A stretch of 64,000 bases of DNA from Dermatophagoides farinae (Eukaryota > Arthropoda > Arachnida > Sarcoptiformes > Pyroglyphidae), in the NCBI RefSeq assembly GCF_024713945.1, contig NC_134679.1, forward strand, positions 749,001-813,000. Direction: 5' to 3'. The notes beneath the pieces are model-generated. The model made no database searches. It was not told where the DNA came from and worked only from the letters and a program-made list of their open reading frames with translations. A program made the translations under genes and the position numbers. Positions 54,359 through 63,205 of the stretch are shown piece by piece; the stretch's first letter is position 1; each line of letters starts with the position of its first letter.

Positions 54359-55950
54359 TTATCGAGGTAACAATCCAGGTAATTTATGTGCTGGTGACAT
54401 AAAACAAGCGAATAGATAAAACATTCCAAAATAGAAATTTAAACGTGCCATTTGTCTAGGTATTGATTCCAATTGTCGGTAACGAAATTGTCTTTCCAAT
54501 TTGAATGCTTTAGGCAATGTTATTAATGGTAATAGTAGCCATAATGAATAATTTAATGAACCAACCACGAATAGAATGTATGGTATGAATAAAAGTAAAG
54601 CAAACAATACATGTGATAAACGATAACCAATCAATATGGCTATTGTTACACAACCAGCACGACGATCAACATTTATATCTCTGGTATTGTTTGAATGTAA
54701 TATTGCTTCCGTATTCAATGCTAATGGTATTGCATATAATAATGTTACAAGACGAATCGTTCCTAGAGAAAGATTTTGAAATTTTGAAATGAAAAAATGG
54801 CCAGAAAAATGAATAAACAATTTTACCTGTTTGTGCAATGAATGAATATAAAACAGAAACTGGACCAAATGTAATCATAATGATAATATCACCTAATGCA
54901 ATATATTTAAGACCAATTCCTCCGGTATAAAGAAATGAACTGGACAATCCACCAAAATAAATGAATGCAAGTAATTCCATTCGCGCTGGCGATTGAATGG
55001 CAACCACCAAAAAACCGATACATCCAATGAAATAGAAAAGTACACCTGAATAATAATAATAATAAAGATGATAAATGGATGATGATTATCAGCTGTGTAA
55101 ACACAATCACACACTTACCAAGATTAACAACCTCTTCTGGTGTTAATATTGAATCAACAAGTGTACGATCATCGGATTGACGTTTTGAATCGATACCACG
55201 AACAAAATCGCAATAAGTATTAACAAGATTACCAGCAGCATGTACAGATAGAACGGTTAATAATGTGGCCAATAGAATGATCCATGAAAATTGTCCACCA
55301 CTTGTTTTCGATGCCAATACCGTGCCCATTAATACAGGTATCAGAGATGTAAAAAAAGTACCGGGTCTCAATGATGATAGATATTGTTTGGCACGTGTTA
55401 AGATTGTTGTACTTGATAAAAATATCGATGAAATTTGTTTAGATATGTTCCATGATGATGATGTAGATGATGAAAAGGTCGAAGATAATAGCGGAGATGA
55501 TGGAGATTTATTACACGATAATGATGATGATGATGATGATGATGATGTTAAGGAAGTTTCCTCATGTGAATTAATACTACTAGGAATTGGATGACTATTA
55601 TGGTTAAAATTATTTTTATTGATAACATTTTCATCATCATCAACAACAATTAAATCATTTGATTTTGATTTGTTCATCATTATATTATTGTTGGTGGTAG
55701 CAGTAGTAGTGGTAGTAGTAGAAGTAATGGATAAATCAGTTTCAGCTGATGATTCATGATGATGATGATGATGATGATGTTGATGGTGGTGATGATGATT
55801 ATCATCATTTTTATTATGATGATTAAGAATTCCAATTGATTCGGAATTATTATTCGTCATCATTGTCGTTGATGAAGCTGTTGCTGCTGCTGCTGCTGCG
55901 GTTGTTGTTGTCTTGGTGATTTTTGGATTTTTTATTTTATGTCTTTCCAT
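54359..55950 (-). CDS. UBIAD1: UbiA prenyltransferase domain-containing protein 1
   Basis: Exons 55950-55119, 55045-54827 and 54762-54359, GT-AG, all phase 1, 484 residues. UBIAD1 (fly heixuedian) is a polytopic ER/Golgi prenyltransferase that makes menaquinone-4 and is also linked to sterol-regulated HMG-CoA reductase turnover. The catalytic core starts near residue 193 (SLRPGTFF). It holds the first Asp-rich motif NTYCDFVRGID, SDDRTLVDSILTPEEVV, LAFIYFGGLSSSFLYTGGIGLKY, ALGDIIIMITFGP, and the second Asp-rich motif LHSNNTRDINVDRRAG, then ERQFRYRQ. An N-terminal extension of about 190 residues is Thr/Ala/His/Ser/Asn-rich, including a run of His; vertebrate UBIAD1 has a far shorter leader. Internal Met codons (30, 31, 91, 92) are possible alternative starts. 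Confidence 0.95.
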
Positions 55951-56634: not shown

Positions 56635-57465
56635 ATGATGATGAACAATTTAATTCGATCCAGAATCTGGCCCATTTATAATCAACTTTACAATGCAAGA
56701 ATTCTATTGCCAAATGTAGGATTTCCACATCAACAACAACTATTTGAATCAACGTATTCCAAATACGATACATGGACCTATCAACATGACCAGGAGATAC
56801 ATCAAGATCGTCTTTATCCAAAACCAAAACGATGGCCCAGATATAATGAAATTATCCATTCACCTGAAGAAGGTCCAGTAGAGAGGGTGAGAATTGTTTT
56901 TTTTTTACTAGAAAGAAAACATTTCTAACGTTTTTTTTCGCTTAAAATTCAGTATTATTGCCATCATCGTGAAAATATTAAATATTCGCCGAAAAAAATG
57001 TATTTTGTCGCTAGTTTTGTAAGTATTTTTTTTATTCGATTAATTTTTCCGTTGGTTATCAAGATTTTTTTTTCTTTATAGATTCGTGGCATGTCAATCG
57101 ACGAGGCAATCAAACAACTTTCATATGTTAAACTTAAAGGTGGTGCTATAGTGAAAGAAATTCTACAAGAAGCACAAGAAATTGCCGTACATGAACATAA
57201 TTTTGAATTCAAATCAAACATGTGGATTGCGGAAAGTTTTTGTTCCAAGGGTGTCGTATATAAAGGTTTTCGTAAACATGCAAGAATGCGTTTCGGTGAG
57301 ATACGTTATTTTCATTGTCATTATTATGTTAAATTGGTGGAAGGCGAACCACCGGAACATTATTATCCATCACAAGGGCCATATGTGGACAAGATGTCAA
57401 TCGAACAACGGCTTGAACAACATGTTGGAAAATTGCGTCAACGAAGAATTGATTTTGCATTGTAG
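56635..57465 (+). CDS. MRPL22: Mitochondrial large-subunit ribosomal protein uL22m
   Basis: Exons 56635-56886, 56953-57018 and 57082-57465, GT-AG, all phase 0, about 233 residues. The N-terminus (Arg/Tyr/Gln-rich, few acids) fits a mitochondrial targeting peptide. The uL22 core follows: HHRENIKYSPKKMYFVASFIRGMSIDEAIKQL, KGGAIVKEILQEAQEIAVHEHN, WIAESFCSKG, and the tail RMRFGEIRYFHCHYYVKLVEG. uL22 lines the peptide exit tunnel. The start could be any of three consecutive ATGs. The stop lies only 88 bases from the convergent neighbour's stop. Confidence 0.95.
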
Positions 57466-57553: not shown

Positions 57554-58694
57554 TCATTCTAATATCAATCGAAGATTTTTTTTATTCAACTGATGTAATT
57601 CATAAAGATGATCCATTACGTGGATTAAATGTTCCGATAATGTTTGCATATTATGCAAATTGATTCGATCGGCCATCTGGGCTAATGTTTTGTTTCCAGA
57701 TAAAATTTCTTTATTCTGCACCTGATAATGATGAAGTTTTCTGTGTGTGTGTGTATGGTGTTGAATTGGATTAAATTTTGATTCAAGAAAACAACGAAAC
57801 AACTTAAACTTACTTGGAAATCCAATCATGTTCGAGATGTAATTCATCAATTAAACTTTGAATTTGTTTGATAATCTTTTGTGGTGTTTGCTGCTGCTGC
57901 TGCTGCTGTGGATGATGATGATGGTGGTTTGATGATTTTTCTTGTTGATTATGTAATTCATTAATTTTATTACATAAAAGATTGTGTTGTTTCAAACGAG
58001 CCAATTGTTGTTGTTTAGCTATAAATTTTGAATGACTCTGATGTTGGAATGATTCACTATTGAGAACCAAATCAATATCCGGCTTCGTTAGACGATAATG
58101 TAAATGATGTTGAACCGGTAATGATAATGATGATGATGATAATTTTTCCATTGGATTCGATGATGATTGTAGACGATTAAATTTATTACGAAAACGTTCA
58201 TCACTTTCCAGACAAAATTTACTATATTCTGATGATGGATTCAATGAATGATTAGTTGGATGAATCGATGATCTTTCAATCAATTGTTGATTGCCATGTA
58301 AAGAAGTTTTTCGAGATTTATCTTTATCCATCGAACATTTTGTTGTTGCCATTGTGGATGATTTTGGAATTTCCATTTCTATTTTAACCGGTGTTTCAAT
58401 TTCCATTTTAACATTTTCCACCTTATTCTTATTATTATTTATCGATAATTGTTCCAATTGTCTGACAAGAAGTAATAAAATTTTATGTAAATCTTCTTCA
58501 ATATCAAACAACGAACGTTCCAACGAATGATTATGATGATGTGTACAGCCATTGCCACGATTTCTTGAATTTTGATGACGTTCATCGAACATTTTCAATA
58601 ATTCACGTTCAATTTGATCATATCGTGAATGTGATAATAGTAAACGAAAATCTGGTGCTTCATTGTTCAATGATAACGAATCATCTGTTTCCAT
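57554..58694 (-). CDS. Unrecognised coiled-coil protein, 355 aa
   Basis: Exons 58694-57814 and 57740-57554, GT-AG (phase 2), 355 residues. The N-terminal part APDFRLLLSHSRYDQIERELL and a helix DIEEDLHKILLLLVRQLEQLSI look structured. The middle is Ser/His/Gln-rich and charged, with several paired Val/Ile-Lys-Met/Glu-Ile-Glu repeats. The C-terminus is predicted helical (IIKQIQSLIDELHLEHDWISKK; LAQMADRINLHNMQTLSEHLIHVMDHLYELHQL), with heptad-like spacing. I recognise no family. A cytoskeletal, centrosomal or adaptor coiled-coil protein is possible but unproven. It converges on MRPL22 with an 88-base gap; overlapping 3' UTRs are likely. Confidence 0.75.
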
Positions 58695-58911
58695 TGTAAT
58701 TGATCAAGCAAATGATTACGAATCTTTAACGAAACAACAAAGGTTAAATGGAAACAAAAACAAAATTGAAAAACAACAACTACACGGTAACTATGGTAAC
58801 TATTTGGAATTTTATTTCGAGCATAATCTTTTTTTTTTGTTAAAAAAAAGAATCTAGATACATTTCATTATTCTTTGATCAATACAAAAGAATTAAAATC
58901 AATCGATAAAT

Positions 58912-61900
58912 TCATAATTGATAAGTTCGAATATTGAATTCTTGTTCACAGGCACTCATACCAGGCATGAATGTATCCAATTGATTTGAACGTAAACTTT
59001 GTCGTTGTCGAAAACTTTCACGAATCCTGTGGCCACGTGTACGGCGATTTTGTTGTGGATTACATTTGAATATCAACACACCTAATGCAATTGAACGGTA
59101 GAAAACAATCTGAAATAATAACATTCGTAGACAATGATAAAAATATTGGCCTTGTTCATCACGTGATAACATCATTTTATACAACACAATGGATATTTCG
59201 CCAGTATTACAACGATCAAAACCATATTGTAATTGAAATAATGCTTCATTTATAAAACGTAGTACAGAAAATTGTGCAACAAATTGATAACCATAATGCA
59301 TTTCTTCAATCGGATTGAATGTATTGGACAATACGAACCATGTGAAAAAATTTGAAAATGTCACCACAATCAATACGATAAAATTCGAACCAATCAACAA
59401 TGCAAATAGATGACTCTGGCCTTGGATGACCAAGGCGCCAAGAAATGTTAATATAACCATCCACCAATACATTCCGGGTCGTACTGGTTCAAAAACATCA
59501 ACAATATAATTATAGACAAGAATTATTGGAATTAATGCCAATATTTCATAACCAGATTTCACTAGATAAAATGACATTGTTGAATACCATCCTATTGAAT
59601 TCAAAAAAAAAATAAATTTTTCATTAACAAAATTTCAATCATCGCCATCACAATTGCTTACCATTTCGATGTTCATTGAAAAAATAGACAAATTCTTTAG
59701 TTAAAGCAAAACCAGATTGTACAAGAAAAATGAGCAAAAAAAATGAATTCATCAATATTGTATAACAGGTATTGTTGACCAAATCAATTTGTTCCTGAAG
59801 ACGAGCCGTAGAAAGATGATTAAAATCTTCATCAAAACTTACACAGCCACTGGTATGGACAGATTTTGGATTGAACACAAACCGCAATAGATATCCATGA
59901 TAAATGTATAAAACAATATACGATACTGTTTCTAACCAGAGATAATTTTTCTGATACATTAGATTACGAAAAAATAGAAACCAAAATGATGTCAATGAAA
60001 ATCTTGGACGATTTAGCTGTATACCATCATCACAAGCAACAACATCATCTTCAAATTCTTCATCAGTGATTTCTTGTGTTAAAATTCGTTGATCCGATAA
60101 TTGACATAACATTTGAACGATTCGATCTTCATTCGAAAGACATGAATATTTCATTAATTCCTCGGTAACCACTGTACAACCACATGGATCAGGAAGATTA
60201 ATCTCCGGTACAAGACGAAGATTTTCAGCAATTTTTTCGGCTACACCCGAATAAATACAAACACCACCACGTGCAAGACAATAGATTTGATCAAACATTT
60301 GTAAAATTTCTGTATTCGGTTGATGAATACTAACTACTAACGTGATTAGATGACGCCGAACCAATTTTTGAAGACAACGAATTTCAATTGCAGCTGAATT
60401 TGAATCCAATCCACTTGTTGGTTCGTCAATACAAATCAGATTTGGCATTCTCAGTGATGTCAATTCCAATGCCAATGCCAAACGTTTTCGTTCACCATCA
60501 GAACAATAATCAACAAATGTTGATGCCGTATGACTTATGTCCAATTCATCCAAGAGATTTGTTGCAATTTCTTCATAATCAATCTTGCCACCACGAAATG
60601 TTTGTCCATAGAAACGTTCGGCAATATTTTTCAATTTTGCAGCATAAATCAAACTTTGTTTTGCAGTCAAACCGGGTAATAGATGGCCAGAAATCTCTTG
60701 CGAAATATAACATATTCGTGTAGGTGTATATTTGCTAATATAGATTTGTGATTCAGCACTTAAATAGGTTTTCCATCGACCATTTAATACCTTTAATAAG
60801 GAAGTTTTTCCTGAACCTGAAGTACCCATCACTGCATTCAATGTTCCGAATCGAAATTGGCCATTCAGATTATGTAGAATTAATTTTGGATTAGTCATTT
60901 TTACAATCGATGGTGATTCACGTATCATTCGTTCACCGAATAATGATAAAGAACGCCATGCTAAATGTATTTTTCCACGGCAAAAATTTTCAAATTTTGT
61001 TTCTACATCTGGTTTGATTCTTGTGGTGAAACGAACTTTAAAACAATTTTTACTTCTTTTTCGAACATTTGATGATGATTTTGATGTTTGTCTGTCTTGA
61101 TCATAATCCACTATAGATGATACACCATCATTCGCTGATCGACGATACATTCGGTTAATTTTACCTTTGAAACTGAAACGAATCCACATACAAATCAATG
61201 TTAGCAAACGAAGAATGAACATGTTTCGAAAAACGGGTTTTAAATTTTCAAAAATTTTCTCAACATCAACCGAATATTTATGAAGCATAACTGAATATTC
61301 TGTCAATGGATCATCACACCTGTCCAGGCCATAAAATGCATACAATACACCATTGTTTATAAATCTTGAAGCCAAAAAATTTGAAATCTTGATTGCCCAT
61401 GGATTTCCCAATTGTTCAAGAATGATGAAATGGCCATCGAAAACAAACAATACAGTGATGAATATTTGAACAAGAACCATAAAAATCTGTATACGATCAC
61501 CAGCTAAAATGAGTAAAAAATGACCAAATGATTGCATATATAAAAATTCAATCCAATAAAAGAATAGAAAATGACCAAATCTTGTCCAATTGAATTGATT
61601 TTGATCCAGATATAGAAAATCCATTGTAAAATAAATCAATGATGTACTGGTCAATACATAAAGAATACTTTCAATCAATTGGATTAATGTTAATGACCAA
61701 AAACATGTTCCCACTGAATACCAACGATTACGGTGTTCATTGCGAAATACTTTCAATATTGGTACGAATAAAAAACAAGCAAGACCCATTGCAACGGATG
61801 AAATGAACAATGTTGTCATTGATTGATGCATTATAAATGAATCATGATGTGCACTATTACGAAGATTATCGTGACAATTTTCTAGATCGGTTAAATTTCG

Positions 61901-63205
61901 TCCATTGCTGTTGTCACCATTATTATCTTCGATAATGAAATTTGAAATTTTTGATAATGAAAAATTTGATTGATCAGGCAATTCACAACAAGCTTTCGAA
62001 CGAACAATTTCTTCGCCATTGAATACGGTGGAAATAAACACAAAAAGATAGGTGAATGTCAATAAAACTGCCAATACTGATTTATAATTGATCATAAACA
62101 TTATATGAAATAATCTGATGAATTCAATGATAAAATCTTTGAATAGAAAACGTTTAAAATGTTGTGGAACACCATATGGTAGGAAATCCAATTGATCGAA
62201 ATATGGCATCAATCGATCATGTTCAAGTTTTTGAACATTATGGGCCAATGTTTGTACTTTTTGGCTTTCGATTCCTTTATGGAAAAAAAACAAATCAGTG
62301 TTTCAATTGAATTTTTTCATTTCGTTGACAAACTTACCCATACAAGCGATTTTAAGATATTCTTCAATCGGTGGTTTTTCCAATTCATCTTCTTGATGAT
62401 CATCACAACTTGAATCTAGACCAAATTGTTCCTTTAGTAATGGACGTAACTGATCTGGTGGACCAGCGTAAATACAAACACCGCCTTTAGCTAAAACATA
62501 AAGTTTATCAAAAAGATGTAAAATATCGCTATTTGGTGTATGAATGGAAATGGTCACAGACATTCGATGATTATCAGCTAAACGACGTAAACATTTCATT
62601 ACAACTAATGCTGAATTTGAATCTAATCCAGTGGTTGGTTCATCTACAAACAGAAATGATGGTTGACGTCGTAGGGACATTAGTTCTTGTGCAATGGCAA
62701 TACGTTTTTGTTCACCACCGGAACAAAGATTAAAACGACGTTTCAGAATCTTTTTGTCAAGCATTAATTCTTCAATAATTCTTTCAATATGTTCATTCAT
62801 TTGATGTTTAGAGATACAACGATTTTTGAATAAAAATGCATAACGTAAAGCTTCGCCAACTTTTAATTGTCCATAAATCATTTCATGTACGGCACGATCA
62901 ATCAAACCAATAATTGGTATACGTTTTTCCACCGGATTCAAATAAATTTCTGTTTCAGATGACAATCCAGAACGTACAACCATATTACCGGTCAGGCAAC
63001 GGATGAATGTTGTTTTACCACATCCACTTGGACCCATAAAACCGGTTAAATTATGATATTCAAGTGATCCGGTTAAACATCGTAAAATTGGTACCTTTTC
63101 ACGATGATGAAGCCAATGTGATGCTTCGTAACGAAGATTATGCCATACTAATGAAATATTCAATTCGTTTGTTTGTTGTTGTGGATGTTGTCTTTGTTGT
63201 GTCAT
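58912..63205 (-). CDS. Full-size ABCG transporter (NBD-TMD-NBD-TMD)
   Basis: Exons 63205-62338, 62274-59662 and 59591-58912, GT-AG, all phase 1, giving about 1,386 residues. NBD1 has Walker A GPSGCGKTT (Lys64), signature CSGGEQ (161-166), Walker B LFVDEPTTGLD (188-189) and the H-loop SIHTPN. TMD1 follows (six hydrophobic segments, about 335-660). NBD2 has Walker A GTSGSGKTS (Lys779), a degenerate signature CSDGE (880-884), Walker B CIDEPTSGLD and H-loop SIHQPN. TMD2 fills the C-terminus. TMD1 and NBD2 lie in one uninterrupted 2.6-kb exon, so the fusion is seen directly. ABCG proteins export lipids, sterols or xenobiotics; animal members are normally NBD-TMD half-transporters that dimerise. 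The polar C-terminal tail is basic. Another ABCG gene follows upstream in tandem. Confidence 0.93.

Follow-up and report, generated by a model that had tools for sequence, protein, structure and literature searches.

A 64,000-nucleotide stretch of the genome of the house dust mite Dermatophagoides farinae (contig NC_134679.1, here C3; C3:749001-813000; referred to below as the window) contains a minus-strand gene at window positions 63205 to 58912 that encodes a 1,386-residue ABCG transporter with the order NBD-TMD-NBD-TMD (NBD, nucleotide-binding domain; TMD, transmembrane domain). With a probability of about 0.9, this is a genuine D. farinae full-size ABCG, one of about 30 paralogues that go back to a single fusion of two related animal half-units, independent of the fungal pleiotropic drug resistance (PDR) transporters, and that multiplied afterwards through both tandem and dispersed duplications. 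The full-size architecture, with all four domains in one reading frame, is confirmed, and the gene structure suggests that a single transcript and a single polypeptide would be produced. A preliminary description of this DNA had proposed a full-size ABCG in an animal genome; the observation is right, the host being a mite, and it is understated, as there is a family of about 30 genes and not one gene.

The gene consists of three exons (63205 to 62338, 62274 to 59662, and 59591 to 58912) with zero internal stops. Its two GT-AG introns are 63 nucleotides (nt) (62337 to 62275) and 70 nt (59661 to 59592) long and are both in phase 1, in agreement with the matching-phase joins across introns of 60 to 70 bases noted previously. 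The same model was obtained with a splice-aware aligner when the 1,386-residue protein was used as the query and a longer stretch (L009) as the target. Exon 1 contains the start codon and NBD1 (amino acids 16 to 288; about 63160 to 62342), with the Walker A motif GPSGCGKTT (63034 to 63008), the signature CSGGEQKR, and the Walker B motif DEPTTGLD. The site of intron 1 is common to 10 of the 22 family members that were modelled. Exon 2 encodes TMD1 (about 62272 to 60995), a linker, NBD2 (about 60973 to 60140), and the start of TMD2, the NBD2 motifs being GTSGSGKTS (Walker A), CSDGERKR (signature, 60505 to 60482), and DEPTSGLD (Walker B). The claim that a single 2.6-kb stop-free exon runs through TMD1 and NBD2 is borne out by an 884-codon stop-free frame that contains exon 2 and spans TMD1, the linker, and NBD2. 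Intron 2 lies in TMD2 between NEHRN and GWYS, a site and phase shared by 20 of the 22 models, and exon 3 encodes the remainder of TMD2 and the stop codon.

Both NBDs match the Pfam family ABC_tran (E values, 4.5e-15 for NBD1 and 3.9e-15 for NBD2), and TMD1 matches ABC2_membrane above the cut-off (1.7e-12). The match of TMD2 to ABC2_membrane is weak (8.6e-4) and under Pfam's cut-off; taken singly, 9 of 16 family TMD2s match this model at an E value of 0.01. A profile built from 16 family TMD2s found human ABCG1 in the PDB at an E value of 1.9e-9 and ABCG2 at 0.023, and it found no PDR chain up to an E value of 0.1. The domain order is reverse, with the NBD N-terminal to the TMD, as in the ABCG subfamily. 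Among NCBIfam models, TIGR00955 (pigment precursor permease, White-type) scores highest with both NBD1 and exon 2, at 138 and 165 bits, compared to 106 and 103 bits for the PDR model TIGR00956; for family member L010, which has two NBDs in frame, the scores are 297 and 237 bits, and all of these scores are under the curated cut-offs.

In the 62.4-Mb, 22-contig assembly, 29 further sites match the exon coding for TMD1 and NBD2 at 36 to 48% identity, and each of them has a whole or partial first-NBD match on the same strand no more than about 1.7 kb upstream, which excludes a chance origin of the full-size pattern. At least 30 full-size ABCG loci are spread over six contigs, six of the genes forming one array (C3:5612800-5645000); the search scored the best candidates only, and more loci are possible. 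Of these 30 loci, 23 were read (22 modelled, together with L054, the end of which is cut off), and 7 are known from search matches alone. The models of 21 of the 22 loci contain one to three short introns and translate into stop-free proteins of 1301 to 1605 residues; the L025 model (994 residues) is without part of NBD1 and TMD1, and this locus could be a damaged copy. In each of the 22 models, a single stop-free exon of 429 to 534 codons covers the later part of TMD1, the linker, and NBD2. In L010, NBD1, TMD1, and NBD2 share one plain open frame of 1,190 codons, and in L050 a plain open frame of 1,163 codons holds NBD1 to NBD2, into which the model inserts a 60-nt in-frame intron. A search for relatives in two contig collections, described as prokaryotic and viral, gave 75 and 31 pattern matches, respectively, none of which was confirmed.

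Followed separately, as the preliminary description had suggested, NBD1 and NBD2 each form a clade of their own. In a tree of 62 NBDs, which omits the truncated NBD1 of L025, the 21 NBD1s are one clade (support, 99/97) and the 22 NBD2s are another (100/99), and the two group together with the mite half-transporter L030 at 100/100. The NBD1s and NBD2s of fungal Pdr5 and Cdr1, human ABCG1 (part of the NBD) and ABCG2, and nine other mite half-transporter rows fall outside this clade; the branching order among these rows is weakly supported and does not indicate the nearest half-transporter beyond L030. Three rows of uncertain class that carry the provisional label ABCHorA are placed far outside. 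In a 35-row tree without L030 (10 of the 22 full-size genes; L037 and L038 also omitted), the mite NBD1 and NBD2 clades are sisters at 100/99, and with this set a clade of NBD2 and fungal NBD2 was rejected (p 0.0054). Trees of NBD-plus-TMD units, with 13 of the 22 full-size genes and 8 of the 10 ABCG-like half-transporter rows (L037 and L038 omitted), repeat both clades (100/99 and 100/100). Among 20 genes (L025 and L043 were not included), NBD1s are 47 to 99% identical to each other and NBD2s are 54 to 96% identical, with NBD1 and NBD2 only 32 to 42% identical (32 to 41% within single proteins). When separate trees were built from the first units and from the second units of 21 genes (without L025), 13 of 18 splits were common to both, whereas 2000 permutations gave a mean of 0.16 and a maximum of 4, so that both halves have largely moved together through the family expansion. 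The fusion predates the radiation of the modelled full-size genes and is older than the locus in the window.

The two halves also share an intron. A phase-1 intron after NEHRN (or its equivalent) interrupts TMD1 in 19 and TMD2 in 20 of the 22 models; the models of L027 and L028 put the TMD2 intron one codon later, in phase 2, and L054 has the same two TMD introns. The TMD1 copy is absent from the gene in the window and from L010, and L025 is without that region. In the first two the absence is most simply a loss, which explains the 2.6-kb exon: with the TMD1 intron present in 19 of 22 models, the undivided exon is derived. In L030, too, a phase-1 intron lies between NEHRN and G. Models of L044 to L048, L029, and L031 (made with L044 as the query) showed no phase-1 intron at this site; a phase-0 intron of L047 lies a few codons before it. 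An intron shared by the two halves and by a related half gene is the trace expected from doubling an intron-bearing half gene. Because the clades of the two halves are closest kin, the profiles fit the White/ABCG1 type better than fungal PDR, the grouping of NBD2 with fungal NBD2 is rejected, and the phase-1 intron is common, we infer that two related animal half-units fused once and that the fusion gene then expanded. Most simply, the fused units would have been two copies of one half-transporter gene, joined head to tail.

Several observations weigh against this account. The 62-NBD tree contains long branches (L030, NBD1 of L043, and the fungal NBD1s), and in the 35-row set a clade of NBD1 and fungal NBD1, though not recovered in the tree, was not rejected (p 0.099). 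Pdr5 and Cdr1 top the PDB lists for both NBD pieces of the window gene when these are used as single queries. The position of L030 is not fixed, as neither a placement outside both halves (p 0.19) nor one with the second half (p 0.097) was rejected. The gene models are biased to open frames because the aligner penalises stops, and the motif A[AT]TAAA occurs in the linkers of 7 of the 22 genes, so that internal transcript ends are possible for some family members. Purifying selection on close paralogues, by contrast, speaks for the account: the ratios of nonsynonymous to synonymous divergence (dN/dS) are 0.20 to 0.34 overall and 0.08 to 0.15 in NBD2 in all nine pairs, some of which share a gene and none of which includes the gene in the window.

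The placement of L030 bears on what was fused. L030 (C5:5256000-5262000) is an ABCG half-transporter with a degenerate signature and Walker B motif, and it is placed beside the first half with support of 91/84 by units and 95/81 by NBD. Together with the low identity of NBD1 to NBD2 within single proteins, this would fit a fusion of two paralogues that had already diverged, one of them of the L030 lineage, and not of two copies of one gene. The halves as sisters to the exclusion of L030 are, however, compatible with the data, as is L030 with the second half, by the two p values just given; in addition, the L030 branch is long (2.3), and L030 may itself be a half that split off from a full-size gene. 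We regard this variant as a possible but tentative alternative to the doubling of a single half gene. A half-transporter nearer than L030 may exist among five further ABC2_membrane loci (C9:727877, C9:957415, C4:4041208, C5:4702120, and C9:2636346), although the NBD matches near them reach only 28 to 36%. Two further divergent half-transporters, L037 and L038, lie about 12 kb apart on C2 (at about 6.91 to 6.93 Mb) and are a putative ABCG5/ABCG8-like pair.

Directly upstream of the gene, in tandem and on the same strand, is L043, the 3' end of which (the last part of TMD2 and the tail; 64000 to 63484) lies in the window, the gene continuing to about 817.5 kb on C3. The preliminary description was correct that a second ABCG gene is present here, but this gene is not half-size: L043 is itself a full-size ABCG with a stop-free model of 1605 amino acids. 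The proposal that two half-transporters had fused is likewise retained as far as the joining of half-units is concerned and not for a joining of the tandem pair at this place, as the neighbour is full-size and the fusion predates the family radiation. A local fusion of two adjoining half genes is therefore ruled out. In L043, the Walker A, signature, and H-loop motifs are lost or altered in both NBDs, with the Asp-Glu of Walker B retained; it could be a pseudo-transporter maintained as an open frame.

The motif changes in L043, together with the Gly-to-Asp change in the NBD2 signature of the gene beside it (CSDGERKR, where CSGGE or CSGGQ is usual), could mean that both are decaying copies without transport function. 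Yet both have complete stop-free models (1605 and 1386 amino acids), and the 1,386-residue protein retains the Walker A, Walker B, and H-loop residues in both NBDs, which makes decay of the pair unlikely. Canonical Walker A, signature, Walker B, and H-loop motifs are found at both ATP sites in 19 of the 22 models, the exceptions being this protein, L043, and the truncated L025. The first halves have the variants CSGGEQ[KR]R, DEPTTGLD, and IHxP, and the second halves have CSGG[EQ]RKR and IHQP (VHQP once). In ABC proteins, each ATP is enclosed by the Walker A motif of one NBD together with the signature of its partner NBD. Because the NBD1 Walker A site would be completed by the NBD2 signature, the Asp in CSDGE may weaken the NBD1 site, and this site could be somewhat less active in the window protein. 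The same residue varies elsewhere (CSNGERKR in L054 and CSNG in the half-transporters L044 and L031), suggesting that this signature position tolerates change and speaking against a weakened site.

A further alternative is that the locus comprises two overlapping half-transporter genes, one transcript ending after TMD1 and another starting in the linker, with half-size products. In-frame Met codons in the linker of the gene and the A[AT]TAAA motifs in the linkers of other members would allow this. In the gene itself, however, A[AT]TAAA is absent from the linker and occurs once past the stop codon, and in 18 of the 22 genes it is found no more than 200 nt past the stop. The stop-free exon that joins the later TMD1 to NBD2 in every model, the inclusion of NBD1 in the same open frame in L010 and L050, the linker dN/dS of less than 0.7 in all nine pairs (on only 32 to 33 codons each), and the congruent evolution of the halves all argue against separate products, and this arrangement is very improbable. 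Two separate transcripts were set aside as the likely reading on the grounds of the open frames, the linker dN/dS, and the congruent halves.

The PDB lists of the two NBD pieces and the NBD1 grouping that was not rejected (p 0.099) could point to a PDR-type full-size ABCG acquired by horizontal transfer from a fungus or plant, or to contamination. The lead of Pdr5 and Cdr1 in these lists arises because the totals sum two NBDs per fungal chain: the best single PDB domain for NBD1 is human ABCG2 (90.5 bits), with 73.5 bits for Pdr5 and 75.5 bits for another Cdr1 chain. In general, the top places in the lists go to ABCG-type chains, among them those of fungal PDR proteins. The degenerate first site of the PDR type (Lys to Cys in the Walker A motif of NBD1) is absent, the NBD1 of the window gene having GPSGCGKTT. 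Given also the sister relation of the mite halves (100/99, or 100/100 with L030), the rejection of NBD2 with fungal NBD2 (p 0.0054), the better White-type scores, the recovery of ABCG1 by the TMD2 profile, the same intron in a half-transporter, and the location of the loci on mite contigs of 3.6 to 7.2 Mb, transfer or contamination is very improbable. A fungal origin or fungal contamination is rejected on the basis of the sister clades, the NBD2 test, the White-type profile, and the TMD2 profile, so that the contamination raised as a concern in the preliminary description has no support from trees or profiles on the fungal side; on the plant side, outside the sampling of the trees, the placement of both mite halves as sisters suggests independence as well. 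The assembly carries a group 2 allergen gene (L052) with 119 of 120 residues identical to Der f 2 (PDB 1ahk) and less similar to Der p 2, which identifies the genome as that of D. farinae (Arthropoda, Acariformes, Astigmata).

The proteins of the mite family are like the animal ABCG half-transporters (ABCG1/ABCG4 and White; TIGR00955) in having the NBD before the TMD, a White-type NBD profile, and an ABCG1-like TMD2. However, the known animal ABCGs contain a single NBD and a single TMD and need to form dimers, whereas the mite proteins have both units in one chain. The fungal PDR proteins Pdr5 and Cdr1 (TIGR00956; chains of 1501 to 1511 residues) have the same single-chain (NBD-TMD)2 order, but the mite halves do not pair off with the PDR halves, and the first site of Pdr5/Cdr1 is degenerate (GRPGSGCTT, CWDNATRGLD, and LNVEQ), whereas both sites are canonical in most of the mite models. 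PMC4923091 describes full-size ABCGs of plants, which are like the mite proteins in this respect. In Tetrahymena, three full-size ABCGs (PMC2984421) are a precedent for half-to-full fusion within ABCG in one lineage; there the NBDs are dispersed among half-transporters, in contrast to the single fusion and about 30 genes of the mite.

One polypeptide would contain both halves of the usual ABCG dimer, with the pairing of the halves fixed by their presence in the same chain. The two NBDs would close on two ATPs, and this closure would make the two divergent TMDs alternate between an inward-open and an outward-open conformation. The likeliest task, judged from ABCG biology and the family expansion, would be to pump small hydrophobic compounds, either lipids or xenobiotics, out across the plasma membrane.

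In seven of nine paralogue pairs, NBD1 has diverged less at synonymous sites than TMD1 (L019/L021 and L026/L028 show the reverse), and in eight of nine the same holds for NBD2 relative to TMD2. In L023/L024, which are about 200 kb apart, the synonymous divergence is 0.065 in NBD1 and 0.99 in TMD1, and the four-fold sites of these two genes differ by 3 to 6% in NBD1 windows and by 37 to 67% in TMD1 windows; L024/L027 show little contrast. In L023/L024, L018/L020, and L020/L022, the NBDs of a pair resemble each other more closely at four-fold sites than the TMDs do; some pairs do not show this. We read these values as gene conversion of the NBDs in part of the family, also between genes about 200 kb apart, with the TMDs free to diverge, a pattern expected of a family diversifying in substrate. 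Animals have probably evolved a PDR-like family of their own, in which a single doubling and fusion of half-units in the lineage leading to D. farinae gave rise to about 30 genes, with NBDs apparently converted in many pairs, TMDs diverging, and L030 as a surviving relative; the gene in the window, beside a neighbour without ATPase motifs, is perhaps gaining the one-weak-site asymmetry of fungal PDR pumps.

According to PMC3724490, ABCG half-transporters alone had been reported for metazoans, and the 23 ABCGs of the spider mite all have the typical reverse organisation; PMC6471920 and PMC4247197 describe the ABCGs of most metazoans as half-size. An unverified remark in PMC4247197 attributes full transporters of the ABCG type to oyster and shrimp; the titles of the works cited for it, two about transporters in these species and a third about fungal PDR, do not show it. 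PMC12364353 lists two up-regulated genes of Psoroptes ovis named ABC transporter G family member 20, with no size given, and full-size ABCGs are unmentioned in passages of PMC7738191, PMC8290562, and PMC6806590. Among the matches listed in the literature searches, which covered few subscription papers, there was no further described animal full-size ABCG apart from the oyster and shrimp remark, in keeping with the preliminary description, which knew of none. The full-size architecture has so far been reported from plants, fungi, and some single-celled organisms, and the mite family is by all signs a new, independently evolved variant.

The family is an independent replicate of the half-to-full fusion known from fungal and plant drug pumps, and it offers natural single-chain ABCG dimers with two distinguishable halves in a well-known allergenic mite. 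It may have a bearing on the transport of mite cuticle lipids or on acaricide survival. The family is also relevant to annotation, because such loci could be split or mislabelled.

Three other coding regions were noted in the window near the transporter gene. Directly downstream of it is a 297-codon minus-strand frame (57810 to 58703) with no Pfam match. A ribosomal protein L22 domain (PF00237) is encoded on the plus strand at 57082 to 57465, and the product is probably mitochondrial L22. A minus-strand gene at 54907 to 55950 encodes a UbiA-family prenyltransferase (PF01040), probably UBIAD1, with poly-His and poly-Ser tracts near the N terminus.

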